DNA of 30,207 nt, taken from the IMG/VR virus record IMGVR_UViG_3300007734_000557, positions 1 to 30,207 of that record. One strand, written 5' to 3'. The position numbers and the translations under genes were made by a program. The DNA comes from a virus. Positions 5,234 through 26,669 of this stretch are shown one piece after another; the first letter of the stretch is position 1; each line of letters opens with the position of its first letter. A model generated the notes under the pieces. That model was not told the origin of the DNA and did not search any database. It worked only from the letters and a program-made list of their open reading frames with translations.

Positions 5234-5833
5234 TTATTTCCATGCAATAATGTTGTTAAAGATTCTATCGATTCTATCTGAACGATTGAATGTCTTGTTT
5301 AGATCGCGGACATCAATGTTCTTTGATTCATTAATGAATGCACCTGGTGTCGATGGTTCAGAAACTATATCAAAACATATGAGCTGAAAATCATCTTGAA
5401 CAATTAGTGTATTGCCTTGTTGCTTTGTAGATCCTACACCTCTTGATGAGATGCCAAGCGTTACACCTGATTCTACTAAGCTCTGAAGAATTTTGCCACT
5501 TGGTGTATCAAGTAGTTCTATCACTCCAAAGACATCATCACCGTCCATTTTCGCTTCTTTGACAAGATGCGATGCATTCTTTAGCTCAACAACAGATGTA
5601 TCAGGATGATCACATTCACCTAGCGCTCGATTCTCTCTAATAAACTTCTGGTAGTTAATGATTTCTCTCTCAAGTATTCCTCGAGGATAAATCCTTCCAT
5701 TTTGGTTTAGTGTATCTGCGCGCTGGATAATACCTTTAAGCAATATTTTACCACCGTTCATGTCTCTTGATTCTTTAACAAGAGCGGTGCTATATTTGAG
5801 AGCAGTCCACTCTTTAAGCAATGTCATTGACAT
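5234..5833 (-). CDS. 21: Prohead maturation protease, gp21-like
   Basis: The 199-residue protein has the herpes/T4-type prohead protease fold signatures. These are a core beginning GGKILLKGIIQRAD (about 27-40), a NQNGRIYPR segment, the catalytic His in GECDHPDTS (H76), and the catalytic Ser in LGISSRGVGS (S129 or S130). An Asp in the strand ICFDIVSEPSTPGA (D155) may complete the active site. T4 gp21 has 212 residues, so length agrees. It degrades the scaffold and trims gp23 after L-x-E motifs, such as the one at E61 of the capsid protein here. Its ATG overlaps the previous stop as TAATG. Gene order portal, unknown, protease, scaffold, capsid matches T4 genes 20-23 apart from the inserted unknowns. 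Confidence 0.92.
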   Translation of the reverse strand: MSMTLLKEWTALKYSTALVKESRDMNGGKILLKGIIQRADTLNQNGRIYPRGILEREIINYQKFIRENRALGECDHPDTSVVELKNASHLVKEAKMDGDDVFGVIELLDTPSGKILQSLVESGVTLGISSRGVGSTKQQGNTLIVQDDFQLICFDIVSEPSTPGAFINESKNIDVRDLNKTFNRSDRIDRIFNNIIAWK

Positions 5834-6672
5834 TATGCCCCCTTTAGTTCTCTAATTAGTTGTGTAATTGTCATTAGCCGCGAAAGCTTATCATCATCTA
5901 TTGATTCAAAAGTAAGTTGTGCTAGTTTATTAGCAACAACTTCTGCTTTTTCAAGTACAACGTGATTTGTCTCAGTCTTCTTAAGAATGTCAAGCGCTTG
6001 TGTTGCTTCATTCTTTAACATCGCGGCTTTGAACTTAATCGATTCGCAATCATCATTTTGAACAGAGAAGACGTAATCGTTAATCAAGTCTTTTTGCTCA
6101 TTTGTGAGCTTGTCATTATATTTCTTGTTGAATTTTTCATTCATAATCTTAACAACTAAAGAGTCAACATTACGATCAACATCAGGCTCAACTTCAATTT
6201 CTTTCTTTTCTGACGTCAGCCATTCAATCAACGTTGACTCAATAACAACTACTTCAGACAGATTTGATCTGTCGCCTTGACGCCATTCATTTAGCAGCGT
6301 TTGTATTGATGCATAAACTCTGTAGTCAGGTATGCTACGTCTATAGAATTTATCATCTGCAAGACTGTAATTGATCTCTCTTATAAGAGAAGACTTTTCA
6401 TTATCTAATTTTGCAGCATCAAATCTACGAGAAGCTGCTCTAGACTCTGTTAAAATTGCTGCTGCAATTGATGAGTCTTTTACGGTAGTCTTTGCAAGTG
6501 CATTAAATAATCTGAACTCTTTATAAAGTTCTGTGTTCTTATTGTAGTGCGTTGTTAAGACATTTAGCGCAATTTGCGCTCGCGGCTTATCGTTCTCGAT
6601 AAGGTACGCAGAGACCGCGCGAACTAGAAGTTCGTAGATTATTCCAACATTACGTTTTTTATTATGACTCAT
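5833..6672 (-). CDS. Unknown protein between portal and protease (279 aa)
   Basis: The longest reading starts at 6720, but that begins deep in the portal gene. The Met at 6672 has AGGGGATGAAG just upstream and starts MSHNKKRNVGIIYELL, so I prefer it (279 residues, 11-nt overlap with the portal end). The protein is almost entirely alpha-helical and highly charged, with no membrane segment or known catalytic motif. It ends with helices (LEKAEVVANKLAQL, then KLSRLMTITQLIRELKG). I know no function. Position between portal and protease suggests a head-assembly or prohead-core partner. It is much larger than T4 gp67/gp68, which occupy this interval in T4. Confidence 0.82.
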   Translation of the reverse strand: MSHNKKRNVGIIYELLVRAVSAYLIENDKPRAQIALNVLTTHYNKNTELYKEFRLFNALAKTTVKDSSIAAAILTESRAASRRFDAAKLDNEKSSLIREINYSLADDKFYRRSIPDYRVYASIQTLLNEWRQGDRSNLSEVVVIESTLIEWLTSEKKEIEVEPDVDRNVDSLVVKIMNEKFNKKYNDKLTNEQKDLINDYVFSVQNDDCESIKFKAAMLKNEATQALDILKKTETNHVVLEKAEVVANKLAQLTFESIDDDKLSRLMTITQLIRELKGA

Positions 6673-9600
6673 CTTCATCCCCTGATGTATTTTCTGACTC
6701 AGAGATCTTTCTATTAGCATTCTTGAGTTTTTTCACAATTGATTCAATCTCAGATAACCGCATATCACCAAAAATTTGTCTTTGATCTAAGTATTCATCA
6801 ACATCGTCATCGTCATTCTCTGACATTGGATTTTTGAAAGGATTTATAAGATCTTGTTTATTTCCAAAAGGATGTGATATTGAATCACTTTGCTTTGACT
6901 TGCTGTGTGACACAAGCTTTGCATGATCAGTATCTTGATTAAGTGGATTTTTCCTTCGAGGCTTGTTTTTTAACTCTCTAGCTACGTAGTTAGGACCAGG
7001 AGATGTCTCTCCAAGCAGGCTCTTTTTAAGTGATAGACTATGTTTAGGCTTGACTGGATAGGGGGCGTAGCTTCCATTTCGATAAATCTCTTCGTCATTA
7101 TCAAAAGCTTCTTCATAATCGACTTCACCCAATGTTTGTTGACCACCTGACAAATCTGTAGTTTGACCATTATCTTCGGGCGGTGATGGTGGTGCTGATG
7201 TATCGCTAGGAATCACAGAACTCAGATCTGCATTTGGTGCAGATCCAGGAATTTCTGGAAGTTTGACTGCTTCAATCTTAAGTTCCATCGCCTTGTCTTT
7301 TAGCAATCCCTTTTCGATTTCCTTTATCTCATCATCAGACATCATAAAGACGTTCTTTCTAACCCAATTCTTATCAACGAGACCTGCAACACCGTTTGCT
7401 GATTGTGCAATTGTGAATTTCGTATTGAAAAGTTCTAGCTTTTGTTGCTGTGCAATCGTTGAAGGATTTGTAAGTTTCAACTCAAAATCTAGCAGATCAT
7501 CTCCGCTAAATCCATGTGTATGAAGATGAATTATTGCAATCTTGTTAAGTTCAGAGAGAATCGTTCTTTGGATTCTATTGATCGATCTTGAAAACCTGAT
7601 ATCTTCTTGTGACAGTGTTGCCTTAGCACCAAGACCTTCATCGTAGCCAAGATATGCTTTTGGTATTTTTAAAGCAGCAAATAGCTTTTTCTGGATGTAT
7701 TGAACATCTTCAACAGCCGCTGTATTCTGACCGCCTGTTAGTGTATCAATTTTTGTGCCTGTCGAAGCGCCACGAACAGGTAAGAAATAATCTTCATCAA
7801 CTGAGAGAGGATTATATCGAAGATCGACGCGCCCAGTGTTCTTATCAACGACTTGATTTTTCTTAAGCTGCGCTTGAGCCTGCTCCATGTAATTAGGAAT
7901 TTCTTCAGGTGGAATATTTCCTACATCAATGTAGAAGACACGACGATCTGGCGCTCTAACAATTCGATAGACTAACATCGCATCTTCGACAAGAATCAAT
8001 TGACGCCATATTCTTCTTGCAGCTTCTAGAACTGATGTTCCGTAAGGAAGAAATGCATCATTTCCTAAGATTCTAAAATGAGAAACTTGCCAATTTTCAA
8101 GGATCTGGTTTCCTTGAGTCATCCAGCGAAATCTAACTGCCAGAGGGTCATCTTTATCATAGCCTTCTTCGCGCTCAATTTCATTAACAGAGATTGGATA
8201 AACATTGATTACTCCAACCTCTGGCGAAACATCATTAAACAGGAAGAAGTCACCGTATTTACACATATTTCTGACCCAAGATGTCAAATTAAAATTGACA
8301 TTTAGCGTGTCATAGAAAAGTTCATTTAAGATCTTATGAACGCTTGGGTTCTCTGAGTAAATGTGCAGAACATTACCCATCTCATCAGGTGCAACAGATT
8401 CTTCTGCGTATATGTCAAGAGAGCTTGCAATCTCAGGTGTGTTGTGAGAAATGACAGTATCAGTTGCAAAATTCTTGTATCCATCAACTGTAAGATCAAA
8501 TAAAGGAATTACTCCGTGATATTCGATTGAAGATACTTTGAGATTATTATAAGACTCATTAAACTCAGAGTAATTCTTATATCCCCTATCTCTTAATCGC
8601 TTATCGATAATAGACGTAGTAGTTTGTAGCTCATTTGCAAGATTCTTTTTCTTCATTCCTTTAGTAAATTTTTCACAAATCTTATCAAAAGTTATGATTT
8701 TAACGTAACGAGGATTTAGATCACCGGTATTGACCCAACCAGCATTTTGCCAGTCAGGCCTATAGGCTTTAGCAAAAGTCTCAAAATTATCGTAACCGTG
8801 ACGACGCAAACGTCGCTTAATAACATTCGGGTCAGTATCAAATGCATCGCAAAGTCGATAAAGATTAAATCCAACTGATTCACAAGTTTCAAGAATCCTG
8901 CCAAATGTGATATCTTTACGTTCGGCTGGGTTGTTTTCTGTCATAAACTTAGAATGCTTTAATTTGAATTCTTCAATCCAAGAAGCATTTTCAGCTGACC
9001 ATTTGTTTCCATTAATAATTTCTGTATGCAATCGCTTATGATCTGCATCTATCATAATTTGTAGATTCTCGATCCTGTTATCATACTTGGTGAAATTCAA
9101 GTGATGGACAACTTCATTGTCATCAAGCTGTGAACCCTTGATCATCTCTGCAAGAAGACGATGTTCTGCTGTCCAACCATTCATTTTTGATCTACGATCC
9201 ATCGTGTAGATCCAGCGATATCCCTTGCCTTCTTCTTTGCAACCATTAAAAAGATCACGTCGATAGAAAGGCATCATTGCATCGTCGGTTTTAAGATCTT
9301 CAATCTTGCAAAAAGTACCATCTCGCTTCATTAGACGATGATTTGGAGTGCCTATAATCTTTTGACCGTTGTCAAAAGTGACCGTGTAGGCATGATCGAC
9401 TCGTGTCTGTCGCGCTTGCTTTCCAATTGCAGGAACAATTCGATGCTCATTATGATCGTATGAATAGACAATGAAAGTATGATCTGTGTCTTTCTCGCAA
9501 TCTTTTGCAAGCTCACCAATTGTCTTGTAGCCTCCAGGCACAGCAATCAATGTGTCTTCATGTAAGCAATATTCCATTTCTTGGAAGTCAGAATATCTTG

Positions 9601-9790
9601 CCATACGATCATAAGATCCATATGCAGACATTGCTGAGCTGTACACATGACTCTGCGTCTTTCTAAAGAGTTCAAAAGCCGACGTGTTCTTTGTGCTTGG
9701 CATAAAGTCACGCACTCTACGCTTGATAACAGGTCCGCTTCTAAATAACTTTGTAAGTCTACTAAATACGCTATCTTCTTGCTTCGCCAT
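6662..9790 (-). CDS. 20: Portal protein, gp20-like, interrupted by an intein
   Basis: The 1042-residue precursor consists of a 74-residue N-extein, a 376-residue intein (75-450) and a 592-residue C-extein; splicing would give a portal of 666 residues. The exteins join as DFQEMEY + TPEIASSLDIYAEES, a typical gp20 segment. Later gp20 signatures include RAPDRRVFYIDVGNIPPEE, YNPLSVDEDYFLPVRG and IPKAYLGYDEGLGAKATLSQEDIRFSR. T4 gp20 has 524 residues; the extra length is a hydrophilic, probably disordered C-terminal tail (roughly the last 200 residues, with Asp/Glu clusters). The portal forms the dodecameric ring at the head vertex, nucleates prohead assembly and is the DNA channel used by the terminase encoded just upstream. 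Without splicing the protein should not work. Confidence 0.93.
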   Translation of the reverse strand: MAKQEDSVFSRLTKLFRSGPVIKRRVRDFMPSTKNTSAFELFRKTQSHVYSSAMSAYGSYDRMARYSDFQEMEYCLHEDTLIAVPGGYKTIGELAKDCEKDTDHTFIVYSYDHNEHRIVPAIGKQARQTRVDHAYTVTFDNGQKIIGTPNHRLMKRDGTFCKIEDLKTDDAMMPFYRRDLFNGCKEEGKGYRWIYTMDRRSKMNGWTAEHRLLAEMIKGSQLDDNEVVHHLNFTKYDNRIENLQIMIDADHKRLHTEIINGNKWSAENASWIEEFKLKHSKFMTENNPAERKDITFGRILETCESVGFNLYRLCDAFDTDPNVIKRRLRRHGYDNFETFAKAYRPDWQNAGWVNTGDLNPRYVKIITFDKICEKFTKGMKKKNLANELQTTTSIIDKRLRDRGYKNYSEFNESYNNLKVSSIEYHGVIPLFDLTVDGYKNFATDTVISHNTPEIASSLDIYAEESVAPDEMGNVLHIYSENPSVHKILNELFYDTLNVNFNLTSWVRNMCKYGDFFLFNDVSPEVGVINVYPISVNEIEREEGYDKDDPLAVRFRWMTQGNQILENWQVSHFRILGNDAFLPYGTSVLEAARRIWRQLILVEDAMLVYRIVRAPDRRVFYIDVGNIPPEEIPNYMEQAQAQLKKNQVVDKNTGRVDLRYNPLSVDEDYFLPVRGASTGTKIDTLTGGQNTAAVEDVQYIQKKLFAALKIPKAYLGYDEGLGAKATLSQEDIRFSRSINRIQRTILSELNKIAIIHLHTHGFSGDDLLDFELKLTNPSTIAQQQKLELFNTKFTIAQSANGVAGLVDKNWVRKNVFMMSDDEIKEIEKGLLKDKAMELKIEAVKLPEIPGSAPNADLSSVIPSDTSAPPSPPEDNGQTTDLSGGQQTLGEVDYEEAFDNDEEIYRNGSYAPYPVKPKHSLSLKKSLLGETSPGPNYVARELKNKPRRKNPLNQDTDHAKLVSHSKSKQSDSISHPFGNKQDLINPFKNPMSENDDDDVDEYLDQRQIFGDMRLSEIESIVKKLKNANRKISESENTSGDEDES
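8441..9568 (-). mobile_element. Portal intein with HNH homing endonuclease domain
   Basis: The intein covers precursor residues 75-450 (376 aa). Splicing residues are intact: Cys at position 1 (CLHEDTLIAV, block A), a block B T-x-x-H (GTPNHRLM, about 73-80), block F (LFDLTVDGYKNFATD) and block G (VISHN) with His-Asn at the end, followed by Thr as the first C-extein residue. Inside lies an HNH-type nuclease segment (intein residues about 133-182: AEHRLLAEMIKG, EVVHHLNFTKYDNRIENLQ, DHKRLH). After it come two related helical repeats (about 220-270 and 291-341), each starting I-T-F and ending with K/R-R-L-R-x-x-G-Y; these look like helix-turn-helix DNA-binding units. The reading frame is open throughout, so both splicing and homing may be active. 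The insertion point lies in a conserved portal motif, as usual for inteins. Confidence 0.93.
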
Positions 9791-9795
9791 TTATC

Positions 9796-11394
9796 CTACT
9801 TGTAGATCCATAATAGATCAGCTGGTATATTGTATCTTGTTTGGAAACGACCGCTTATAAGATCTTTCTTTGCTTCGACTTTTTTCTTGCTTGCACCGGT
9901 AATTATGTCATTTGCAACGCCATTAAATTCTTGTGACTTAAGTGACATACTTGCAAGCATTGCTTTATTGAGAACGTCTGAGTCTCTATTATATTCTGAT
10001 GACGAGTCAAAAAGCCATGCACTTATTGCAAGACTCATTACGAGATCATCATTTTCGCCTTTCATTGCCTGAACTCTATTGTCAGTCCAGACAAACGTCT
10101 TTAATTCATCATAGAATCTTGATGAGTAAGAAATAAGTTGCTTGTTTCTTAGTAGCTCTTCAAGTTTTGTAAGAATTAGCGAACGTGACTTTCCGCTTGT
10201 GCTAAATCCTGCTGTTGTTGTATCGCCAGGAGGTATGTAGTCGCCAATATAGACAGCATTGCTACGTTGGTAGTACATCTTAGGATAGTTTAGATCTCTA
10301 AGTCTGATAATAGTTGCATAACCAAAGCTATTATTCTCTGGGCAGAGAAGTGCTTTATTGTACTTTAGACCATATTCATTAAGAAGATCACCAAATCTAT
10401 CTGGTGCTATTTTTCCTTTATACTCAACAACGATCTCACCTGTCATTAAATCGACAATATGAAATGTTGAGTAGTCTTTTCCATCGCCTCTAGCGATGTC
10501 GGCAGTCATGACGTATTTGTGTTCTGATAGTGGATATTTCCATGTCCAAACGTTTCGATCAAATCCTGATCTTTCAACAGGATTTGCAATGATAGAATAC
10601 AACCACTTAAGATCATCGTCGCCCAAAAATGTCTCGCCAGACGAAGCAAAATCGCACAAGTATTCTTGCGCGATCTGTCTTGCTGAAAGATTTTTAGTCT
10701 CTTTATCAAACCAAGCTTGATCTCGCTCAGGATGAACATCCCAATTCAGTTTGATTGATTTAAACTCATTCTGGTCAGCTTCGGCATCTTTATACAGCTT
10801 GTAATACTGACCACCTACACCATTAGGTGTGGATAAAAGAATTGCACGACCGCCCGTAGTTAGAGTAGGGTATAGACCTGTCCATAACGTATCGAAATCT
10901 CTAACCCATGCTGCTTCATCTACGATAAGAAGCGACAATGCCTCAGATCGACCTGCATCTTCTGATGTCGGTATCGCTTTGATCGATGAACCGTGGCTAA
11001 ACTCAACAAGCTGCTTGTTATTTGCAGTGACCTGCGATAACATTAGCCACGGTGGTAAATTAGTTAGAATCGTTTTGGTCTTCTTGATAAAATTCTGAGC
11101 GACTTGTAATTTCGTCGCAATAATCAAGATATTTTTGTCGCGCTGAAATAACGCGAGCCAAACTGCGTAGGCTGCAACAAGTGTCGAAAGACCAAGCTGT
11201 CTACCTTTCACAACAATGACGAATCTATTGTCAATGAATTCTTTGACACAATCATCTTGGAAAGGAAATGTCTTAAACGGTATTGTACCCTTTGTCGGGT
11301 GCTGAATTTTGACATAGTTGTTGAAAAAATAGGCAGGATCTTTGCCACACCTTACAATCTCAGCAACTTGTCTTGATTTGTTGACAATAGTCAT
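9796..11394 (-). CDS. 17: Terminase large subunit, gp17-like
   Basis: This 532-residue protein combines the packaging ATPase and headful nuclease. In order: adenine-binding Q-motif region (TFPFQDDC, about 42-49), Walker A-like VVKGRQLGLST (61-71), Walker B LLIVDEAAW (155-163), coupling motif LLSTPNGVGG (186-195), then the RNase H-like nuclease with MTADIARGDGKDYS (D299), CPENNSFG (E353) and GENDDLVMS (D449/D450). The P-loop has Leu where T4 gp17 has its essential Lys (SRQLGKTT). A start overlapping the previous stop (TAATG) suggests coupling to the small gene upstream. T4 gp17 has 610 residues; length is in range. It would work with the portal encoded immediately downstream. Confidence 0.94.
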   Translation of the reverse strand: MTIVNKSRQVAEIVRCGKDPAYFFNNYVKIQHPTKGTIPFKTFPFQDDCVKEFIDNRFVIVVKGRQLGLSTLVAAYAVWLALFQRDKNILIIATKLQVAQNFIKKTKTILTNLPPWLMLSQVTANNKQLVEFSHGSSIKAIPTSEDAGRSEALSLLIVDEAAWVRDFDTLWTGLYPTLTTGGRAILLSTPNGVGGQYYKLYKDAEADQNEFKSIKLNWDVHPERDQAWFDKETKNLSARQIAQEYLCDFASSGETFLGDDDLKWLYSIIANPVERSGFDRNVWTWKYPLSEHKYVMTADIARGDGKDYSTFHIVDLMTGEIVVEYKGKIAPDRFGDLLNEYGLKYNKALLCPENNSFGYATIIRLRDLNYPKMYYQRSNAVYIGDYIPPGDTTTAGFSTSGKSRSLILTKLEELLRNKQLISYSSRFYDELKTFVWTDNRVQAMKGENDDLVMSLAISAWLFDSSSEYNRDSDVLNKAMLASMSLKSQEFNGVANDIITGASKKKVEAKKDLISGRFQTRYNIPADLLWIYK

Positions 11395-11774: not shown

Positions 11775-11997
11775 TTTGAATCCTTTTAGCATTCAATGCT
11801 AGCTCAATACGTTCATTTCTATATTTATCAATATCTTCGGCTTGTGGCCGCCAACCTTTAGCCCACTGCTCTCTATTTGCTTCTGCCCATTTCATAGCAC
11901 AATTCCTACAACACTTAAAGTGCTTGTAGTGTGTCTGGTCATGCCTGTAGTCTAATGAAAATTCACAGACTTCACAAAAGAGACTCATATCATTCAT
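11755..11997 (-). CDS. Small zinc-ribbon protein (80 aa)
   Basis: This 80-residue protein has two CxxC knuckles, FCEVCEF (C8, C11) and CCRNCA (C30, C33), separated by a His/Tyr-rich spacer, which together should bind one zinc ion. Then follow a Trp/Gln-rich stretch (KWAEANREQWAKGWRPQ) and a charged helix. The start at 11997 overlaps the end of the Mre11-Rad50 gene by 8 nt and has AAGAG 6 nt upstream. Its 3' end overlaps the next gene by 20 nt. The function is not known. Zinc ribbons of this size in phages may bind nucleic acid or a polymerase, but nothing here shows which. Confidence 0.8.
   Translation of the reverse strand: MNDMSLFCEVCEFSLDYRHDQTHYKHFKCCRNCAMKWAEANREQWAKGWRPQAEDIDKYRNERIELALNAKRIQNELPAD
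11822..11829 (-). promoter_or_regulatory. Possible T4-type late promoter core (GATAAATA)
   Basis: The minus strand reads GATAAATA, 7 of 8 bases of the T4 late consensus TATAAATA, 47 nt before the start of the small gene that precedes the terminase. It lies inside the coding region of the zinc-ribbon gene, where late promoters can occur in compact phage genomes. In AT-rich DNA such a match can arise by chance. Confidence 0.3.
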
Positions 11998-14900
11998 AAT
12001 TCACTCTTGATCTATCACCATCAGTTTCTATCACTATCATATTATCAACAACATCTTTGATTGCATCAACATGTGAGATAATAACTATCTTCTTAAAATA
12101 ACCCTTTAGATTCTGAAGTAAACGTGCGCATGCCTCAAGATTGCTTTCATCAAGTGCACCAAATCCTTCATCGATGATCAACATGTCTGATTTTGGAAGT
12201 GATGAAATACTAGTCAATGCAACACGTATTGCAATTGAAGAAATCATCTTCTCCATTCCTGATCCTAGCTCTATGATGCGCTTTTTGTCATCATAGACGA
12301 TATAGATCTCAATATTGTTGGATTCATCACATTCTATCTCGACCGTAAAGCCTGAGATGCCTGTAAGGATTTTGCTAATCTCAGCATTGATTAGAGGCAG
12401 ATACTTTGCAATGATGCTTTGTGGGATTCCTTTCTTTGAGAAAGCGTTCTCAAGAAGAGACAAGACTTCATGCTTTGCAAGAGACTCTTTAAGATCTTCG
12501 ATCTGCTTAATTGAATTGTTAATCTTTTCTTCATTTCTACCGCGATTTGACGCAGTAGAAATTAGATCACGTTCAAGAGATGCAACCTTGTTTTTAGCAG
12601 CAATAAATTCCTTATGCTGGTCAGCGACCCCTGCCTTATCTTGAAGATCTTTCTTCTTTTGAAGCGTTTTGAGTGACTCAACAGCATCTTGATGTTGTGT
12701 CTTCCTTGTTGTGATTCGTTCCTCAAACAAAGGTATATTTGACTCAGACTTTAACTTCTGTTGTGAGATCTCATTGCTTAGGCTTGCAAGCTTTCCAATC
12801 TTTTCAATCTTTCCTTTAATGTCATCTTTGTTGATCTCTTTAATTCTGTCTCCGAGAATCGACAGCGTTCGCTCTGTGGCATCGCGTGACTCTTCCTCGG
12901 CCTTGATAAGACCTTTTCCTTGATGTGCATCTTTGATAAAAATGCATGTTGGATAGCTGTCACCACATGGAATATCATCAAGAATCTTGGTGCGTTTTCT
13001 AAGTTTCTCAATATCAGAATTTTTTGTCTCAAGATCTTTTGTATTAATTGCAAACTTCATTTCTAGATCTTTTAAGGTCTCTTCCTGCTTTCGAAGATCT
13101 TCTATGCTAACTGTGCTTTTTACCGCTTCAATCTTCTCTAGCTTTTGCTTAAAGTCTTCGATAGACGCAATATTTTCATCCATCTTAGTCTGTAGATCAG
13201 AAAACTCATTCTCAAGACGGCTAATTTTCTGCGTTGCAGTTATGATATCAATATCTGATATGATCTCTGATGTAGGGTTATTGATAGCTTGCAGTCCTTC
13301 TTTCGCTTTGTCAAGCAGCAATGTAGTATTGTCTGCTTCTTTCTCGAGAAGACTTTTCTGCTCAATTAGATCGTCTCTATTTTTTATTAAGACATCTAAT
13401 GTCTGTGTTGTTTTGAGATTTGCTTTGATAGGCGACAAGTCTTGCTTGACTTTATCATGATAGAGATCAAAGATCTCTAAGTCAAGAAATCTGCTTAAGA
13501 TCTGCTTGCGACTTGTCGACTTTTCATTAATAAACATGTTCATCTGGCCTTGAGGGGCTAGACAAGTGTAGAAAAAATCGTCAGATGTGCCAATTAGCTT
13601 TCTAACGATCTTCTCTGTCTCGCGACGTTGCTCATCATTCAGGTCTTTAAGGACATCGCCTGTGCTACGCTTCTTAAGCGAAAGTTTTGTCGTTGCAGAA
13701 ACATCAGATTTCTTTGAGAAGACCTTGTTGGTCTCTCTCTCGATCTCATAAACTTCTTCTGCAACAGACATGACAACTTTAGCTTTGCATTCATTTGCTT
13801 GTGCATTTATGATATGCAAGTTTTTCATCGATCCGCGATCTGTTACATTAAACAATGCATAGGCGATTGATCCTATTACAGACGATTTACCTGACCTGTT
13901 CTTTCCAAAAATCCCAGTTATTCCATCAAGCTTGTCGAAGTTTATTGAATTGCCTGGTCCGTATGAAAACAAGTTGTCAAACTCAAACCGTTTAAGGCTC
14001 CAGACAATATTTCTCGCAACTTCATCATCAATTACAACTGAGTCGTAGTATTTGTCAAATAGTGTCATAGCCGCTCCGAGGCGGCGATCTTCTATCGACT
14101 TAGACTTTAAATAGTCATCGATGATCATCTTAAGGACATTCTTATCCCTAATATTTTCTGACTTTAGTGGTTGAAGTGTTGTCGTAGTTTTTTGCTCGAC
14201 AGACTCTGATTTTGTTGTAATCTCAGAAAATTTACCTGCTGACTGTGTCTGTGTGTAGAGAGAACGAACATCATGCTCATTTACATCAGAAGGTAATGAA
14301 TACCTGATTCTTGCTTTTGGTGTTATTCCTGAAAGCTTCCCAAGAGTTTGTGTAACATCACCATTCCAATCAATTGTGTGAAAAGGCATATCATTCTTCA
14401 CACTAATAAATTTAGTAGTGAAGTTGTTTTTGGTTTTTATGTCCCAAGACAAGAAACCTTTATCTACTTCTTCTCCATAGTTCTGCTGTATTGTCGAACC
14501 ACAATATGCTATTGTACCTGCATCATTAAGAAATTGTCGTTGGTGTATGTCACCAAGCAGTGCAAAATCAAACTTCTCAAATAGATCTATGGTGACTTCA
14601 CCTTCCAGCTCCATCCCAGAGTCTGATTTAGCGCCTTTTACAGCACCATGATAGAATGCAATATTAATGCTACCCTTATCAGGTACTACATCAGGCCATC
14701 CAGCAACATCGAATGGTGAGAAGACACACCATTTAAATCCGTCGACAGGTGCATCAAAAACACCTGACTGCTTAAACAGGCGCAATCTAGGATTATTCAA
14801 TGCTGAGATGATCGGAGTAATTGCGTCTTGTCGGTCCTTATTTAGGATTAGACCATCATGATTTCCAAGAATGACATCAACAGGCGCAATCTTGGTTAGT

Positions 14901-15100
14901 TCTGTGAACCACCATGATAAGACATCGATGACTTCAGGCGTTATACCTTGAGTCTTTGAATGGACAATGTCTCCACCGATGTAAATTACATCAGGCTTTT
15001 CGACCTTTAGCTTCTCAAATGCATCAATAAATGCATTTCGATATTCATCATGTCTAGCAAGACCGCGGAAATGTACATCAGCAAAATGGGCAATTTTCAT
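11990..15100 (-). CDS. 47-46: Fused Mre11/SbcD nuclease and Rad50/SbcC ATPase (gp47-gp46 fusion)
   Basis: One uninterrupted frame of 1036 residues holds both subunits of the recombination nuclease. Residues 1 to about 350 are the SbcD/Mre11 calcineurin-like phosphodiesterase: HFADVHF (D8, H10), GGDIVHS (D44), GNHDG (N80, H81), YHGAVKG (H151) and LGDIHQR (D184, H186). Residues about 365-1036 are SbcC/Rad50: Walker A GKNRSGKSS (399-407), Q-loop LAPQGQMN (Q517), two coiled-coil arms (about 545-710 and 730-880) around a CGDSYPTC hook (C712, C719), signature ELGSGMEKM (945-951), Walker B MLIIDEGFGALD (973-984) and H-loop IISHVD (H1010). In T4 these are the separate proteins gp47 and gp46, which resect DNA ends for recombination-dependent replication. 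All key residues are present, so it should be active. Confidence 0.93.
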   Translation of the reverse strand: MKIAHFADVHFRGLARHDEYRNAFIDAFEKLKVEKPDVIYIGGDIVHSKTQGITPEVIDVLSWWFTELTKIAPVDVILGNHDGLILNKDRQDAITPIISALNNPRLRLFKQSGVFDAPVDGFKWCVFSPFDVAGWPDVVPDKGSINIAFYHGAVKGAKSDSGMELEGEVTIDLFEKFDFALLGDIHQRQFLNDAGTIAYCGSTIQQNYGEEVDKGFLSWDIKTKNNFTTKFISVKNDMPFHTIDWNGDVTQTLGKLSGITPKARIRYSLPSDVNEHDVRSLYTQTQSAGKFSEITTKSESVEQKTTTTLQPLKSENIRDKNVLKMIIDDYLKSKSIEDRRLGAAMTLFDKYYDSVVIDDEVARNIVWSLKRFEFDNLFSYGPGNSINFDKLDGITGIFGKNRSGKSSVIGSIAYALFNVTDRGSMKNLHIINAQANECKAKVVMSVAEEVYEIERETNKVFSKKSDVSATTKLSLKKRSTGDVLKDLNDEQRRETEKIVRKLIGTSDDFFYTCLAPQGQMNMFINEKSTSRKQILSRFLDLEIFDLYHDKVKQDLSPIKANLKTTQTLDVLIKNRDDLIEQKSLLEKEADNTTLLLDKAKEGLQAINNPTSEIISDIDIITATQKISRLENEFSDLQTKMDENIASIEDFKQKLEKIEAVKSTVSIEDLRKQEETLKDLEMKFAINTKDLETKNSDIEKLRKRTKILDDIPCGDSYPTCIFIKDAHQGKGLIKAEEESRDATERTLSILGDRIKEINKDDIKGKIEKIGKLASLSNEISQQKLKSESNIPLFEERITTRKTQHQDAVESLKTLQKKKDLQDKAGVADQHKEFIAAKNKVASLERDLISTASNRGRNEEKINNSIKQIEDLKESLAKHEVLSLLENAFSKKGIPQSIIAKYLPLINAEISKILTGISGFTVEIECDESNNIEIYIVYDDKKRIIELGSGMEKMISSIAIRVALTSISSLPKSDMLIIDEGFGALDESNLEACARLLQNLKGYFKKIVIISHVDAIKDVVDNMIVIETDGDRSRVNYE

Positions 15101-15424: not shown

Positions 15425-16387
15425 TCAGATCATTGACCCACTTTTAATATTTGCTATCTTATACTTGAAAGATGTGGTCATATTCCACATCTGCAGATTT
15501 GATTTTGCATGATCACGTTGATCTTGCGACATTTCTGCAATATCTTTTGCACTCGATGTGTCCATGATCGATACATCACACCCATATTCAACAAGCAAAT
15601 CAGCTATACGACCAATCTTTCGTGTCATGTCACTATCAAGACAGAGAACTACATCAGACTGATTTGCAACTATCTTTTTAAAGAGTAGAGAAGTTTCTGG
15701 AAGTGCTGAGCCGAGGAGGCATGTTCCATTTTCTCCCAAAGCAATCAAATCAAAGACACCTTCAACAAGATAGATCTTCTTATCCCAGTCTATGTCGACG
15801 TCATTAAAAATAATGCTAGTCTTATCTGCTGTAGCATTGATGTATCTGTATTTGGATTTCTTATCAGAAGTTCTGCTTACGAAGTAGTTTACTTCGCCCT
15901 CTGTATCAAGAGAAACAAAGATAGCTCGTCCTCTATGAGAAAACTCAGGTGAAACACCAATCCTGTATTTCCAGATTATTTCTTCTGTAATAGATCGATT
16001 AGAAAGATACCTCAATACAGACTTGACATCAGGATCACGAGCACTCTCTAGTAACGGAATTGGAACATACCCATCAGGTACTGAGACCTTATGCTCCATT
16101 TCGATCATATCTGCTGATAAGATCTTGTCGTTTAGATAGTTCGATCTATAGAAGTCAAGGCTTTCTCTTGAACCAAATTTCCTGATGATTGGAATCAGTG
16201 AATTTCCTTTGCTGCTGCAAACCCAGCAATGAAATTTCCAGTTTTCCAAATTAACTGCTAATTTCTTTTTTCCTTGCTCGTGACAAAATGGGCAGTTGAG
16301 TGTAATGTCATTTCCATCTCGCGAGATATTGCCTTTTCCCAATATCTTTTGGATGAAGTTGATTCGTTCTGTGTAAGTAGAAGACAC
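15425..16387 (-). CDS. DNA primase (zinc finger plus TOPRIM)
   Basis: The start codon is GTG at 16387 (reads MSSTYTERIN). A zinc-binding domain has C32-P-F-C35 and C54-W-V-C57, like the CHC2-type finger of DnaG and T7 gp4. A catalytic core follows (about 105-200), including the segment RGRAIFVSLDTEGEVNYFVSR. A TOPRIM domain has KKIYLVEGVFD (E209), VVLCLDSD (D251, D253) and KD at 281-282. At 320 residues it lacks a helicase domain, so it is a stand-alone primase that would need a separate replicative helicase, as T4 gp61 needs gp41. It probably makes RNA primers for lagging-strand synthesis. A weak AAAGATAAGATATT leader precedes the GTG. Confidence 0.87.
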   Translation of the reverse strand: MSSTYTERINFIQKILGKGNISRDGNDITLNCPFCHEQGKKKLAVNLENWKFHCWVCSSKGNSLIPIIRKFGSRESLDFYRSNYLNDKILSADMIEMEHKVSVPDGYVPIPLLESARDPDVKSVLRYLSNRSITEEIIWKYRIGVSPEFSHRGRAIFVSLDTEGEVNYFVSRTSDKKSKYRYINATADKTSIIFNDVDIDWDKKIYLVEGVFDLIALGENGTCLLGSALPETSLLFKKIVANQSDVVLCLDSDMTRKIGRIADLLVEYGCDVSIMDTSSAKDIAEMSQDQRDHAKSNLQMWNMTTSFKYKIANIKSGSMI

Positions 16388-21246: not shown

Positions 21247-23091
21247 TTAAGACACTTGTGTGTAAACCTTTGCTTCGCTCATGGGTATCGCTACAGGAAT
21301 CTTCGTATTGCCAGTCGTAATGTTCACAATTTGATCTTGTGCAAGATTTGTCTCAAGTATATGGATCTTATATGACGGACGCTTGCTGTTAAATGCTATC
21401 AGATTTAATCGATGACCGTCAGCATCAAGCAAGTCTGTATAATCAGGATCAAAATAGATAGTCATTCGTTTGTGTTCTGAGTCTTTCACAAGATCTGTAA
21501 AAAAGTCTTGTTCAAGATAAAGATTTGGATATGGTTTTGGGCATCCTTTTCTTACAACGGCATTGATCACAAGCGATTCAGTGAATAGATCTACACTGAC
21601 TTGAAATTGTGTCGAGTAATTTGATGTGTAGCCATGCGCATCAACAGAGATGATTGCATAGATGAACCTTGAATTCACATTGAACTCTAGATCGTTGTAT
21701 AGGCATGTTGGACTTTTCTTACGAGTAATAAGTAGATCAGGTATAAGTTCTGAACTTGGCGTCTTTACGACTGAATCATCGAAGTCAATCTCGCTAATCA
21801 ATTCAAACGCAACATCAAGCGAAGGTCTTCTAAATACCTGAAATTTCTTTATGTCACGCTGCTTATTAAATGGAAACTGCCAACCAATAAAAAGATGACC
21901 TTCTGGCAGAAGCTTAAAATAGACATCTTCAGGTGGAGGCGGCGGCGCATTTTCAACACAGAAGATGTCAATATTTTTACCAGAAGTCGCAAATAACATT
22001 TTTGCTTTTGCAATCTGTGCACCGCGTGACGAAGAAGTCTCTGCAGCAGCATACACAATAACTTCGTACAGGGTTCTAACTGTATATGAATATAGTCCAC
22101 CGTACCTTACAGCATTATCGATGTATTGTGTGTCCTTTGAGCTGAGATAAGTCGTCTCATTAATTGTCACAGTTCCATCTGAATTCTGTGTAGATTTGTC
22201 AATGATAAAACCTACATGATTTACTTCGACGCTAAGGTCAGCAGAAGTAATATCTGCCTCATCAAACAGCTCATAATCGTAATAAGGAAGTGTAAGATCG
22301 TATTCATCGGCAGACACTACATATGAGTTTGAGCTTTGCCTTGATTTCTTTTGTATCTTTTCTGATCTTTCTAATGCTGCAGCGAATTCATCTGCAAATA
22401 TCGAATTCTCATTTTCAATTATTCGATTAGTAATATCACCTATGAATAGGTTGCTGAATGAAACTGCGGGTGCAAATCCCTTTACGTCATTCAAGAAGTC
22501 ATTTTGCATGACACCAACTATATCTGTCTTTGCATATCTGTAGCTTGTAGATTGGATATTATTGAGTGCATTAAACAGAAAGCTTCTTTCGTTAGCTGTA
22601 GAAGAAGACATTCTTGACGAAGACAAGGAGACAGTCGGAAGACTTGTCATATCGCTTGTCGACAACGACCTAAGATCTGATGCTTTTGTGATTTCTCCTG
22701 TAAAGAGTGGGTCTGAGGAAGATGACATAATGTAATATGATTTAGCATCTGCAGATGTGTCTTGAACAACAATAGATGAGAAATTACTTCCAAAAGGTGC
22801 ATCTTCATAAAGTATGGGTGCTTTTGAATCCACTAGCGCCTGTATGTCTAGATACTTTGTTGTTGCCCATGTTTGATTCATTTTAATCTGAACGAATCTT
22901 GGTGCCTTTCCTATTCTAGATGCAAAATAGGCATTATCTGTAATTCCATCTCTGCCTAAAATTTGTGATTTTTCATTGACACGTTCGTCGGGCATAAAAA
23001 AGTTGTAGATGAATTTAGATTCAACAATTTCTGGATTTTTAAGACCTGCAACAATTGAAGGAAGTGATGGATATGTGTAGTTGTTTGACAT
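21247..23091 (-). CDS. Virion structural protein with fibronectin-III-like segments (614 aa)
   Basis: The N-terminus (MSNNYTYPSLPSIVAGLKNP) and first 260 residues match no family I recognise. Residues about 280-380 look like one fibronectin-III-like sandwich (YIDNAVRYGGLYSYTVRTLYEV), followed by a linker with five prolines (383-387) and a second such domain from about 388 (GHLFIGWQFPFNKQRDIKKFQVFRRP). FN3 domains are common decorations of phage tail and fibre proteins. The start overlaps the previous stop in a TAATG junction, so synthesis should be coupled to the 1192-residue protein. A tail or neck structural role is inferred. Confidence 0.83.
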   Translation of the reverse strand: MSNNYTYPSLPSIVAGLKNPEIVESKFIYNFFMPDERVNEKSQILGRDGITDNAYFASRIGKAPRFVQIKMNQTWATTKYLDIQALVDSKAPILYEDAPFGSNFSSIVVQDTSADAKSYYIMSSSSDPLFTGEITKASDLRSLSTSDMTSLPTVSLSSSRMSSSTANERSFLFNALNNIQSTSYRYAKTDIVGVMQNDFLNDVKGFAPAVSFSNLFIGDITNRIIENENSIFADEFAAALERSEKIQKKSRQSSNSYVVSADEYDLTLPYYDYELFDEADITSADLSVEVNHVGFIIDKSTQNSDGTVTINETTYLSSKDTQYIDNAVRYGGLYSYTVRTLYEVIVYAAAETSSSRGAQIAKAKMLFATSGKNIDIFCVENAPPPPPEDVYFKLLPEGHLFIGWQFPFNKQRDIKKFQVFRRPSLDVAFELISEIDFDDSVVKTPSSELIPDLLITRKKSPTCLYNDLEFNVNSRFIYAIISVDAHGYTSNYSTQFQVSVDLFTESLVINAVVRKGCPKPYPNLYLEQDFFTDLVKDSEHKRMTIYFDPDYTDLLDADGHRLNLIAFNSKRPSYKIHILETNLAQDQIVNITTGNTKIPVAIPMSEAKVYTQVS

Positions 23092-26000
23092 TATTTCATG
23101 ACTCCTGCTTTTGTGGCTATTGTGCTGATTTCTCTTGATCTGCTACTTAAGGGTATCGAGACGATTGAGTCTAATATCATAGAGGGTGTTGCTGCAGTTG
23201 CGACTCCTGCTTTTGCAACTATTGTGCTAATCTCTCTTGATCTGCTACTTAAGGGTGTTGAGACGATTGAGTCTAATATCATAGAGGGTGTTGCTGCAGT
23301 TGTCGTTGTATTGATTGCAGATGTCACTAATTCAACAGAGATGATTAAATCGCAGAGATAAAAATTGCTAGAACCGCTAAGGTCTGACCCGCTTATTGGT
23401 ATTGCTACAATTTTGTCAAAGACAAAACCTTGCAATGCTTCTTTCATGATCTGTTGTTTTTGAAGTTCTACGATATTGTCAACAGACTTTGTGTATCTTG
23501 ATTTAACAAGAGGATTGATCTGCAATCCAGCAACGTAGTTATCAAAGATCGTTTTTATACTCGCAAGGCTAGCGTATGCAGATGTAACATCAACAGCTTG
23601 ATTTTGATGAAATGCATTGATGTCAAAGTCAAGCCCATAAAGAAGTCGCATATACTCAAGGATCGAATTGCTCTGTATCTCTTGCGTTTTAACTTCTACT
23701 CCGGTAAAGTTGTCAGTTGCAATATTTCCATTTTGATCAAGATACTTCAATGTAGTTGAGTTTATAAGATCTTCTTGACTGCCTATTGAATTTGTCGTGT
23801 ATTTTTGTGTTGCTTGATCGACAAAAGAGACTGCAGGAAATCTATAAGTTTTTTCAAACTTAGTCGCTGTTCCGTAATTCACATCTCTAAATGTCAATGT
23901 GATGTTTATATCTTTTTCAACATTAAGCTTAAATGCACCAAGACGCTCTAGCATTCCGTAAGGAATGCCGCATACGACAATGAAGCTATCTTCTGTTGTT
24001 GGTAAGACAGTATCAGCATAATTTAGCATTCCTAACAGATAGCTGCTAGTTCGATAATAATCACATGTGTAATGAGAGAAGTCTGAGGTCTTTAAACCAT
24101 TCTGACGGCATCTTTCAAGCCATGTAACAGAATTAGTTGTGTACAAAGAAGCTAAATTTTCATTATATGCAGGGTTGTAGTTTTTAGCTGATGTAGCTGC
24201 AGTAGACAATAATGAATTTGTTTTTGCAATATAATCAAGTATGTAACTAAATGTGTCATAAACTACTTGTGTCTTATACATTGTTGGTGCTAGAAGACTA
24301 TCTACTAGAATCTTGATATTTGATTCGTATACATCTTTCGTGTCTAGTGCAGCTAGTCTAGACACAGTCAGATACTGTCCATCAAATGTTGCTGATACTA
24401 TTTCTTCTGCTTGTATGCCAAGAATCTCGGCTGCTAAATCAATATTATCTGCTGAACTAAATGTACTAACAAAGGTTGTTTTAATTTGATTTTCATAACC
24501 AGACATATCATTAGGCTGTGTTGTATCTGTCGTCGCAAGAATATTTGTTAATGATAGGACTTTATTGATAATTCCACTTACATTTGCAAAGAATTTGTAA
24601 TCGTAATAGAGCGAGTAAAAGATCTTATCATAAGTTCTGCTAGATGAACGACCACCACCAGCAGATGACACCTCAGTAAAACTATCTTGATAGCTTGTAA
24701 GTTGAAAGATCGCATCGTCGCTAGAATTAATCAGCCCTCTGAACCAGTAGATTGTCTTTAAAAAGAATGAAAACGCACGATGATCTCTATTCGATTCTAT
24801 GAATTGATTTATTATTCCAACTTTTGCTGTGAAAGGATTATCGTTTGTCATTCCGACTGATGTCAATGTTGAAGATTTTTCAAGATTCTTTGCAAATTCA
24901 TAAAATAAGTCGAGCTGGTTTGCATCATCAGTCAAAAAAGGGTCGAGGACGCTAGGCTTCCACAGATCAGACATATTATCAGGTTTTACTGAATTTTGCT
25001 GATCAGCTCCAGGCGTGACTAAATTTGCAATTGCAGGTATCTTAAGATCGAGAAGGCTCAATGACTTCTCGATAATATCATCTCCACTCGAGCATGTAGG
25101 ATAGTCTGTGAGTCCTAATATGCTTGCAAGTCGCGCCGCTTGCGTTTTAATACCAGCAAGTGCATTTGCCTTCAACACACCTACCTTTGTTGAATCTTGC
25201 TCGTAATCGCCAGGATTGCGCATCCGGTCTCTAAGACCTGCAATCTTAAATAGAACATTCATCAAGGCAGGATCATCAGCAGACTTCATAATCAGTGTAA
25301 ATCGTAATGCACTTTCTTCACGATCAACAATTGAGACAGGTATTTCTGTCATGAAAGTCCTATCAATATATGCAGAAATGCAGCTTAAGAACTCAAAAAA
25401 CATCGTTGTATCATTATTCAGCAGCATCTTCTTGCGCAATGAATCAAGATTGTCATAAAGATTCTGATATATCTGCTGAAACTTTTGCGACCGTGTGTCA
25501 AGAAAGCTTGGATTATTTGCGAGCGGATCAATCAGATAGTATTGATCCGCAACAACATAATCGCTTAAGAATGACTGACTTTGTGATGCATTGTCTAGAC
25601 TTAAGACGAAACGACCTTCATTTGTCAAACTAAGAATTTCACTAAAGACACCACAATTCTTGTTCGAACTTAAGTCTTGCTCATTGCTGAGGTCTGATAA
25701 GTTTCCTAATGCAGTTCTAAATACTGTCTTGACATCTGCACTAGGATCACTAAAGCCGCTCGAATATTGAAGACTTATATCTTTTGAAAGCGTAGTAAAG
25801 ATGCAATCTGCAACTTGTTCTAGCATTGTATTATTTAAATTGTAAGAATTGTCATAGATCGAACTTAACATTTCAATAGACTGATCATACACATCATTAG
25901 AAATAGATTCAATTGTGAATGTATTATCTTGAGATGCTTTTGTCGTTATTCCTGAGTATTTAAGCACACCATAACAATTTCTAGCAAGTTGTGCCATTTT

Positions 26001-26669
26001 AGTGATATTCAATCTGCTATCTGCATCTGTAACAGCTAGATTATCTGTTGCCCATGCAGATGTGCTAGATGCTTGCGAAAAACCGCTAAGATTCTTGACA
26101 GAAAAATCAATTACAGACATTATTGTGGCCGAAGTTCCAGCTGGATCTCGGCCTACAATTTGTGGATTAATTAACATCCATGATGTAGCATCTGTTGATT
26201 GCAAATTATAGAAGTCATCGATAAAATCAAGATAGCTAACTTTTGCACGATAAGCTGCTATAACGTTATCAACAGCATTATTAAATTCTGTCGTATAACC
26301 TGCATTAAAGTCAGTAGTCTGGGTCGTTGTAAATGATCCTGTCAAGCTATTGACAATTTCTGTTGCTGTTGTTAGCACTGCCTTGTTTAATCCACGCTGC
26401 ACAGTGATGACCGATTCTTCGGAACTTTCATTGCGAAGTGGAACTATTGCTAATACCGACGCGAGTGTCGAATTTATGCCTTTCGTAGCAATGAATTTAT
26501 CATAACCTGACTCACTAAGTGACAATTCATCATCAGAATTAGGTGTTATAGTGACTGTGTCTAGTATGGCAGATGTTACTCTTTTTGGCTCATAGCTGGC
26601 ACCTGACACAATGTCTAAAGGTCTTGAAAGAGATTCAATACCTGTCTGAAATACTAGAACTGGCTTCAT
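23091..26669 (-). CDS. Very large virion protein (1192 aa) with C-terminal tandem repeat
   Basis: This is the largest gene in the window. I do not recognise the family. The sequence is a mix of helical and beta stretches, Asn/Ser/Thr/Asp-rich, with no catalytic motif, signal peptide or membrane segment. A beta-rich part at about 900-960 includes SFIVVCGIPYGMLERLGAF and INITLTFRDVNYG. The last 70 residues are two copies of a 34-residue repeat (ATPSMILDSIVS...LSSRSREISTI...KAGV). The start overlaps the previous stop as ATGA and the end overlaps the next start as TAATG, so it is embedded in a coupled set of tail-type genes. A structural role in tail, baseplate or neck is inferred from context. 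Confidence 0.82.
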   Translation of the reverse strand: MKPVLVFQTGIESLSRPLDIVSGASYEPKRVTSAILDTVTITPNSDDELSLSESGYDKFIATKGINSTLASVLAIVPLRNESSEESVITVQRGLNKAVLTTATEIVNSLTGSFTTTQTTDFNAGYTTEFNNAVDNVIAAYRAKVSYLDFIDDFYNLQSTDATSWMLINPQIVGRDPAGTSATIMSVIDFSVKNLSGFSQASSTSAWATDNLAVTDADSRLNITKMAQLARNCYGVLKYSGITTKASQDNTFTIESISNDVYDQSIEMLSSIYDNSYNLNNTMLEQVADCIFTTLSKDISLQYSSGFSDPSADVKTVFRTALGNLSDLSNEQDLSSNKNCGVFSEILSLTNEGRFVLSLDNASQSQSFLSDYVVADQYYLIDPLANNPSFLDTRSQKFQQIYQNLYDNLDSLRKKMLLNNDTTMFFEFLSCISAYIDRTFMTEIPVSIVDREESALRFTLIMKSADDPALMNVLFKIAGLRDRMRNPGDYEQDSTKVGVLKANALAGIKTQAARLASILGLTDYPTCSSGDDIIEKSLSLLDLKIPAIANLVTPGADQQNSVKPDNMSDLWKPSVLDPFLTDDANQLDLFYEFAKNLEKSSTLTSVGMTNDNPFTAKVGIINQFIESNRDHRAFSFFLKTIYWFRGLINSSDDAIFQLTSYQDSFTEVSSAGGGRSSSRTYDKIFYSLYYDYKFFANVSGIINKVLSLTNILATTDTTQPNDMSGYENQIKTTFVSTFSSADNIDLAAEILGIQAEEIVSATFDGQYLTVSRLAALDTKDVYESNIKILVDSLLAPTMYKTQVVYDTFSYILDYIAKTNSLLSTAATSAKNYNPAYNENLASLYTTNSVTWLERCRQNGLKTSDFSHYTCDYYRTSSYLLGMLNYADTVLPTTEDSFIVVCGIPYGMLERLGAFKLNVEKDINITLTFRDVNYGTATKFEKTYRFPAVSFVDQATQKYTTNSIGSQEDLINSTTLKYLDQNGNIATDNFTGVEVKTQEIQSNSILEYMRLLYGLDFDINAFHQNQAVDVTSAYASLASIKTIFDNYVAGLQINPLVKSRYTKSVDNIVELQKQQIMKEALQGFVFDKIVAIPISGSDLSGSSNFYLCDLIISVELVTSAINTTTTAATPSMILDSIVSTPLSSRSREISTIVAKAGVATAATPSMILDSIVSIPLSSRSREISTIATKAGVMK
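23100..23303 (-). repeat. 102-bp in-frame tandem duplication (two copies)
   Basis: The copies are 23100-23201 and 23202-23303, with a period of 102 bp (34 codons). They differ at about 9 of 102 bases, so duplication is fairly recent. Both are in frame and encode nearly the same 34 residues, at the very C-terminus of the 1192-residue protein; the last copy ends only a few codons before its stop. Confidence 0.95.
25523..25550. repeat. Perfect 10-bp inverted repeat with 8-base loop inside a gene
   Basis: GCGGATCAAT at 25523-25532 and its exact complement ATTGATCCGC at 25541-25550 flank the 8-base loop CAGATAGT. It lies within the coding sequence of the 1192-residue protein (there coding ADQYYLIDP). 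No U-run follows in the transcript, so it does not look like an intrinsic terminator. It could form an mRNA hairpin or be a chance palindrome. Confidence 0.6.

Follow-up and report, generated by a model that had tools for sequence, protein, structure and literature searches.

A predicted mobile class 1 HNH intein in the portal gene of a T4-like phage and its place among inteins at ten portal sites

The window analyzed here, i.e., the whole 30,207-nucleotide stretch of IMG/VR record IMGVR_UViG_3300007734_000557, comprises late and replication genes of a T4-like phage, encoded nearly throughout on the minus strand. Its portal gene appears to harbor a mobile class 1 intein after residue 74 of the T4-like portal protein, for which splicing and HNH-mediated homing are predicted; judged from sequence, a probability of about 0.9 is given to this reading. 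For elements of such anatomy, the established pathways are splicing of the class 1 type and homing through the HNH nuclease. In a census of homologous portals, inteins were found at ten sites. In uncultivated phages, the gene for the T4-like portal is likely to be a place where inteins land repeatedly and at many sites, one HNH family having settled at neighboring ones. The interest lies more in this collective distribution than in the window's intein taken alone.

The T4-like portal (gp20) precursor is encoded at positions 6662-9790 on the minus strand (stop codon included), and its 1042 codons run without interruption, in agreement with the open frame described in an earlier note on this DNA. 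The ORF was assigned to phrog_213 (portal), contains the Portal_T4 domain (PF07230, E-value of 1e-75, above the curated cut-off), and matches the T4 gp20 structures 3JA7 and 6UZC with an E-value of about 2e-30. Its identity as gp20 is given by this homology together with its neighbors, the large terminase (9796-11394) and the prohead protease (5234-5833). The major capsid protein Gp23 (1-1842) and a primase (15425-16387) are also encoded in the window, in which no group I intron, tRNA, or other known RNA family was detected (Rfam: no intron).

The precursor is comprised of three parts, all on the minus strand: a 74-aa N-extein (9569-9790) ending in SDFQEMEY, a 376-aa intein (8441-9568, precursor residues 75-450), and a 592-aa C-extein (6665-8440) beginning with Thr-Pro-Glu-Ile-Ala, whose +1 Thr is encoded at 8438-8440. 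The sum of the two exteins gives a calculated portal length of 666 aa after excision. The earlier note had placed an intein with an HNH endonuclease at 8441-9568, between EMEY and TPEIAS of gp20. These coordinates proved exact to the base, with the NCBIfam intein ends falling at the junctions. Specifically, NCBIfam intein_Nterm begins at residue 75 and intein_Cterm ends at residue 451, while Intein_splicing (PF14890, 1.3e-13) and HNH_3 (PF13392, 1.1e-6) both score above their curated cut-offs.

All residues expected of a class 1 intein are present in the window intein, as had been claimed: Cys1 (9566-9568), the block B motif T-P-N-H (intein residues 74-77, 9338-9349, minus strand), whose His77 is invariant in 44 relatives, the terminal His375-Asn376, and Thr at +1. 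The N-terminal splicing region (intein residues 1-105, 9254-9568, minus strand; TIGR01445) adopts a beta fold with Hint matches in the model, and the C-terminal splicing region with blocks F and G (8441-8539, minus strand; TIGR01443) ends at the His-Asn pair. An AlphaFold2 model of the intein, built with 44 related inteins, reached a mean pLDDT of 86.4, and its splicing part (residues ~1-105 and 344-376) was matched to inteins of solved structure, with NpuDnaE (4kl5), SspDnaB (6frg), and SspDnaE (1zde) at the top. The Hint fold is thus indicated by both the predicted model and PF14890, and excision of the in-frame insert from its homologous exteins gives an uninterrupted homologue. A full-length model of the precursor was set aside (mean pLDDT 52.9). 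Class 3 inteins, which lack a nucleophile at position 1, are characterized by a WCT triplet, i.e., Trp in block B, Cys in block F, and Thr in block G (PMC5050341). Class 3 was ruled out for the window intein by Cys1, by FDLTV in block F, and by Leu at the block B Trp position.

The HNH nuclease core (PF13392) occupies intein residues 132-182 (9023-9175, minus strand) and contains EHR, HH155-156, N164, N168, H177, and H181. PF13392 was found in 44/44 relatives of the window intein, in all of which E135, H136, H155, H156, N164, N168, H177, and H181 are invariant. Beyond what the earlier note described, two tandem helix-turn-helix repeats follow, at intein residues 218-269 (8762-8917) and 290-340 (8549-8701), both on the minus strand and seen as helices in the model. 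Their alignment score is 74, against a best score of 43 in 1000 shuffles; in the window protein, no Pfam model reaches its cut-off over these repeats. These presumed DNA-binding repeats are probably the DNA-reading part of the intein.

In the proposed pathway, Cys1 would take over the upstream peptide bond, Thr+1 would attack to form a branched intermediate, Asn376 would cyclize with the assistance of His375, and the exteins would join as EMEY-TPEIAS to yield the 666-residue portal. As the insert splits a head protein that is essential, splicing would be needed for a functional portal. In a co-infected cell, the HNH domain, aimed by the helix-turn-helix repeats, could cut an intein-less portal gene near the site-74 codon, and recombination repair of this cut would copy the intein into it.

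The insertion site was compared in portal relatives drawn from IMG/VR. Among 71 intein-free portals, the junction mostly reads unbroken as EME[Y/A/S]|[T/M]PE[I/L] where readable, so the comparison with intein-free homologues proposed in the earlier note bore out its placement of the insert. Looking for this insertion site in further phages, as the note had also proposed, was productive as well: counting the window, 79 distinct contigs carry an intein at the exact codon (78 in addition to the window), a number inflated by the use of the intein itself as the query in two scans. The frequency of inteins in portal scans is modest, with 7 of the 80 best matches bearing inteins in the scan near the window and 1 of 80 in the next clade. 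Bacterial chromosomal relatives were limited to two loci, one of which sits on a phage-like contig from a Wolfebacteria MAG. The +1 residue is Thr in 73/73 distinct carriers examined, and in the intein-free rows it is Thr in 47/71 and Met in 12/71, with some other letters arising from divergent or gapped alignment. The uniform Thr of the carriers fits the presumed need for a nucleophile at this position, the rows being related rather than independent. Closely similar portals may differ by the insert: intein-free L039 and intein-bearing L178 are 93.1% identical, and the corresponding values are 94.8% for L050/L056, 91.9% for L063/L014, and 91.4% for L026/L107.

Spread into the portal genes of related phages, which the earlier note had only inferred, is supported by tree conflict and synonymous divergence. 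At least 22 changes of intein presence/absence were counted on a portal tree of 137 rows, compared with ~45 for shuffled labels, so that presence is clustered yet repeatedly gained or lost; three contigs ending inside the intein were excluded from these counts. In the intein tree, the window forms a seven-row clade with L107, L004, L010, L134, L143, and L150 (support 100/99), while in the portal tree it groups with L107 and the intein-free L025 and L026. The seven-row clade was rejected by the portal data (AU p = 2e-72), and conversely the intein data rejected the clade that L004 forms with its relatives in the portal tree (p 5e-5); for a smaller portal clade, the AU test on the intein data was not significant (p = 0.136).

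Divergence points in the same direction. Between the window and L002, pS is 0.32 in the intein and 0.82 in the portal (186 codons), and between the window and L003, DNA identity is 90.6% in the intein and 76% in the C-extein. For L110/L064, pS is 0.00 in the intein and 0.61 in the portal. Among 620 intein-bearing pairs, intein pS was below portal pS by more than 0.3 in 26 and above it by more than 0.3 in none, although the 26 are non-independent cases drawn from a few clades, and synonymous sites are saturated in most of the remaining pairs. Due to this saturation, the overall shift between intein and portal divergence across all 620 pairs was uninformative. Taken with the tree conflict, these contrasts lend support to the view that inteins have passed from one uncultivated phage to another at the portal gene.

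It is conceivable, but unlikely, that splicing is intact while the nuclease is inactive, the intein being a passenger in ordinary portal-gene recombination. Late genes of phages recombine frequently, and an inactive intein could travel along by general phage recombination. The HNH domain has been lost in some homologues (the 245-aa site-74 intein of L183 and the 149-aa site-63 intein of L159). Moreover, the flanks of the window retain no co-conversion tract (pS 0.7-0.9 on both sides), so the lines that argue for transfer of the window's own intein are the divergence contrast and the tree conflict. On the other hand, the HNH residues are invariant across 44 relatives with identity down to about 31%, and pN is low across the HNH part; for the window-L002 intein pair, pN/pS is about 0.1 and is low over both the HNH and the splicing parts. 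In several pairs, low divergence is limited to the intein and short flanks. For L139/L148, pS is 0.00 over 30 upstream codons, 0.05-0.08 over 120 downstream codons, and 0.6-0.7 beyond; L137/L144 have a shorter near-identical tract around the insert, and L110/L005 share ten synonymously identical codons on the upstream side only. In L160/L158, the downstream side is near-identical and the upstream side is diverged right up to the insertion site. Among 155 intein-free pairs, by comparison, near-site pS was in no case reduced by more than 0.3. Tracts around the insert are what break repair at the site would be expected to leave, and ordinary recombination might produce them as well.

A second alternative, considerably less probable, is that the intein is a post-translational switch, whose delayed or conditional splicing would allow portal formation and head assembly only late or under certain conditions. 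Assembly of the T4 head begins from the portal. Conditional splicing is documented for mycobacterial DnaB inteins (PMC6195587, PMC7360933). However, close relatives without the intein speak against a conserved requirement, the patchy gain and loss suits a selfish element, and neither a sensor nor any feature pointing to regulation is evident in the sequence. The last alternative, an assembly or annotation artifact fusing the portal gene to an unrelated intein-HNH gene, has nothing found in its favor and is already refuted by independent contigs, the same exact junction recurring in 79 of them with an uninterrupted frame in the window and purifying selection on the intein. A mobile, splicing HNH intein hence remains the preferred reading.

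With sites numbered by the last window extein residue ahead of the insert, the ten sites and their carriers are 63 (L157, L159), 69 (L020, L159), 74 (the window and 78 others), 89 (L078, L022, L183), 133 (L073, L152, L230, L183), 209 (L163, L021), 222 (L021), 286 (L018, L149, L165, L183), 345 (L074, L150), and 347 (L021). The first four of these lie within 27 codons. Inteins group largely by site in the intein tree, but those of sites 63, 69, and 74 form one clade with the site-89 intein of L022 (100/99), which suggests short-range site shifting. In keeping with this, the site-69 intein of L020, inserted 5 residues (15 bases) upstream of site 74, is 38% identical to the window intein. Another clade unites sites 133 and 286 (100/96). 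Inteins at site 133 (L073, L152, L230, L183) and site 286 (L018, L165, L183) begin with Pro1 and have Cys in block F (YCMEV or YCMTV), and so carry what read as class 3 marks; the block B Trp (TPDHEW) is found in L073 and L152, and Phe replaces it in L018, L165, and others. A mixture of class 1 and class 3 features was observed in the site-345 intein of L150, which combines Cys1 with a block B Trp (TPDHKW) and a block F Cys (WCMEV). The idea that inteins occupy the most conserved portal positions was unsupported (mean conservation 0.755 vs. 0.744 for random positions, P = 0.39).

Several portals contain more than one intein. An intact 1878-aa portal frame in L183 (3242-8878) holds four, at sites 74, 89, 133, and 286, and Pfam shows four Intein_splicing stretches in it; its site-74 copy, lacking the HNH domain as mentioned above, has Ser at its start. 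This contig is filed in a Wolfebacteria MAG, and a phage terminase adjoins the portal. In L159 (2512-7431), three inteins at sites 63, 69, and 74 fall within 11 codons, spaced by 6 and 5 extein residues (SRYSDF and SEMEY); the first is the 149-aa mini-intein, and the middle one ends in Gln. L021 (LR756508.1), a 484-kb uncultivated phage, has inteins at portal sites 209, 222, and 347; of these three, two are mini-inteins of 141-150 aa without a nuclease.

Phage inteins concentrate in genes such as terminase and portal, and mycobacteriophage cluster C1 has a portal intein, PORT (PMC5050341). As portal inteins are known in mycobacteriophages, that of the window is of a kind already known, but PORT is reported for actinobacteriophages of cluster C1 rather than for the T4-like gp20 family. 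In text searches of open-licence papers, no description was found of inteins in T4-like gp20 portals or of a ten-site portal hotspot, which is weak evidence of absence. HNH inteins in other phage genes, such as the Hint protein of Bacillus phage SP-15 and metagenomic terminase and DNA polymerase inteins, match the window intein over its whole length in structure (E-values of 6e-18 to 4e-14), these matches being viral predicted structures in which the splicing domain and the insert are aligned. They differ in host gene and share only about 17-21% identity, whereas the window family occupies portal site 74 and has relatives at neighboring portal sites.

A parallel in pattern is the haloarchaeal MCM gene, which also has several neighboring intein sites and patchy, horizontally moving inteins (PMC10643990). 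At one MCM site, alleles with and without the intein differ at +1, with Ser in the former and mainly Pro in the latter (PMC10643990); similarly, portal site 74 has Thr in all carriers and Thr or Met in most empty alleles. MCM inteins carry LAGLIDADG nucleases in an archaeal helicase (PMC10643990), while the portal inteins have HNH nucleases in a phage structural gene with ten sites. Break-repair homing with flank co-conversion is likewise a feature of T4 phages, in their group I introns and homing nucleases (PMC2988022), but these are RNA-splicing introns and free-standing nucleases (PMC2988022), not an intein as in the window. The crAss-like and Jug phages are likewise uncultivated and intein-rich, with two inteins in one crAss-like TerL gene (PMC7886860, PMC12363816); in the available parts of these reports, the multi-intein gene is TerL, and no multi-intein T4-like portal is described.

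The portal is the head ring protein through which DNA enters and is needed early in assembly, and here it would be made from a precursor of 1042 residues; where relatives have several inteins, the precursors reach about 1390-1880 residues. Such portals are a natural case for asking how many rounds of splicing can be tolerated by an essential structural protein, and which of them come first. The patchy recent transfers of portal inteins offer a phage counterpart of haloarchaeal MCM for studying intein homing and competition between neighboring inteins. Where surveys or annotation take the portal gene (g20) to be uninterrupted, such loci will be misread.

Two other ORFs of the window deserve mention, both on the minus strand. 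One (11990-15100, 1036 aa) encodes a calcineurin-like phosphoesterase together with an SbcC/Rad50-like ATPase in a single frame, i.e., a fused nuclease of the gp47-gp46 type. The other (23091-26669, 1192 aa), which has no Pfam match, ends at its C-terminus in two near-identical copies of ~37 residues (ATPSMILDSIVS.PLSSRSREISTI).
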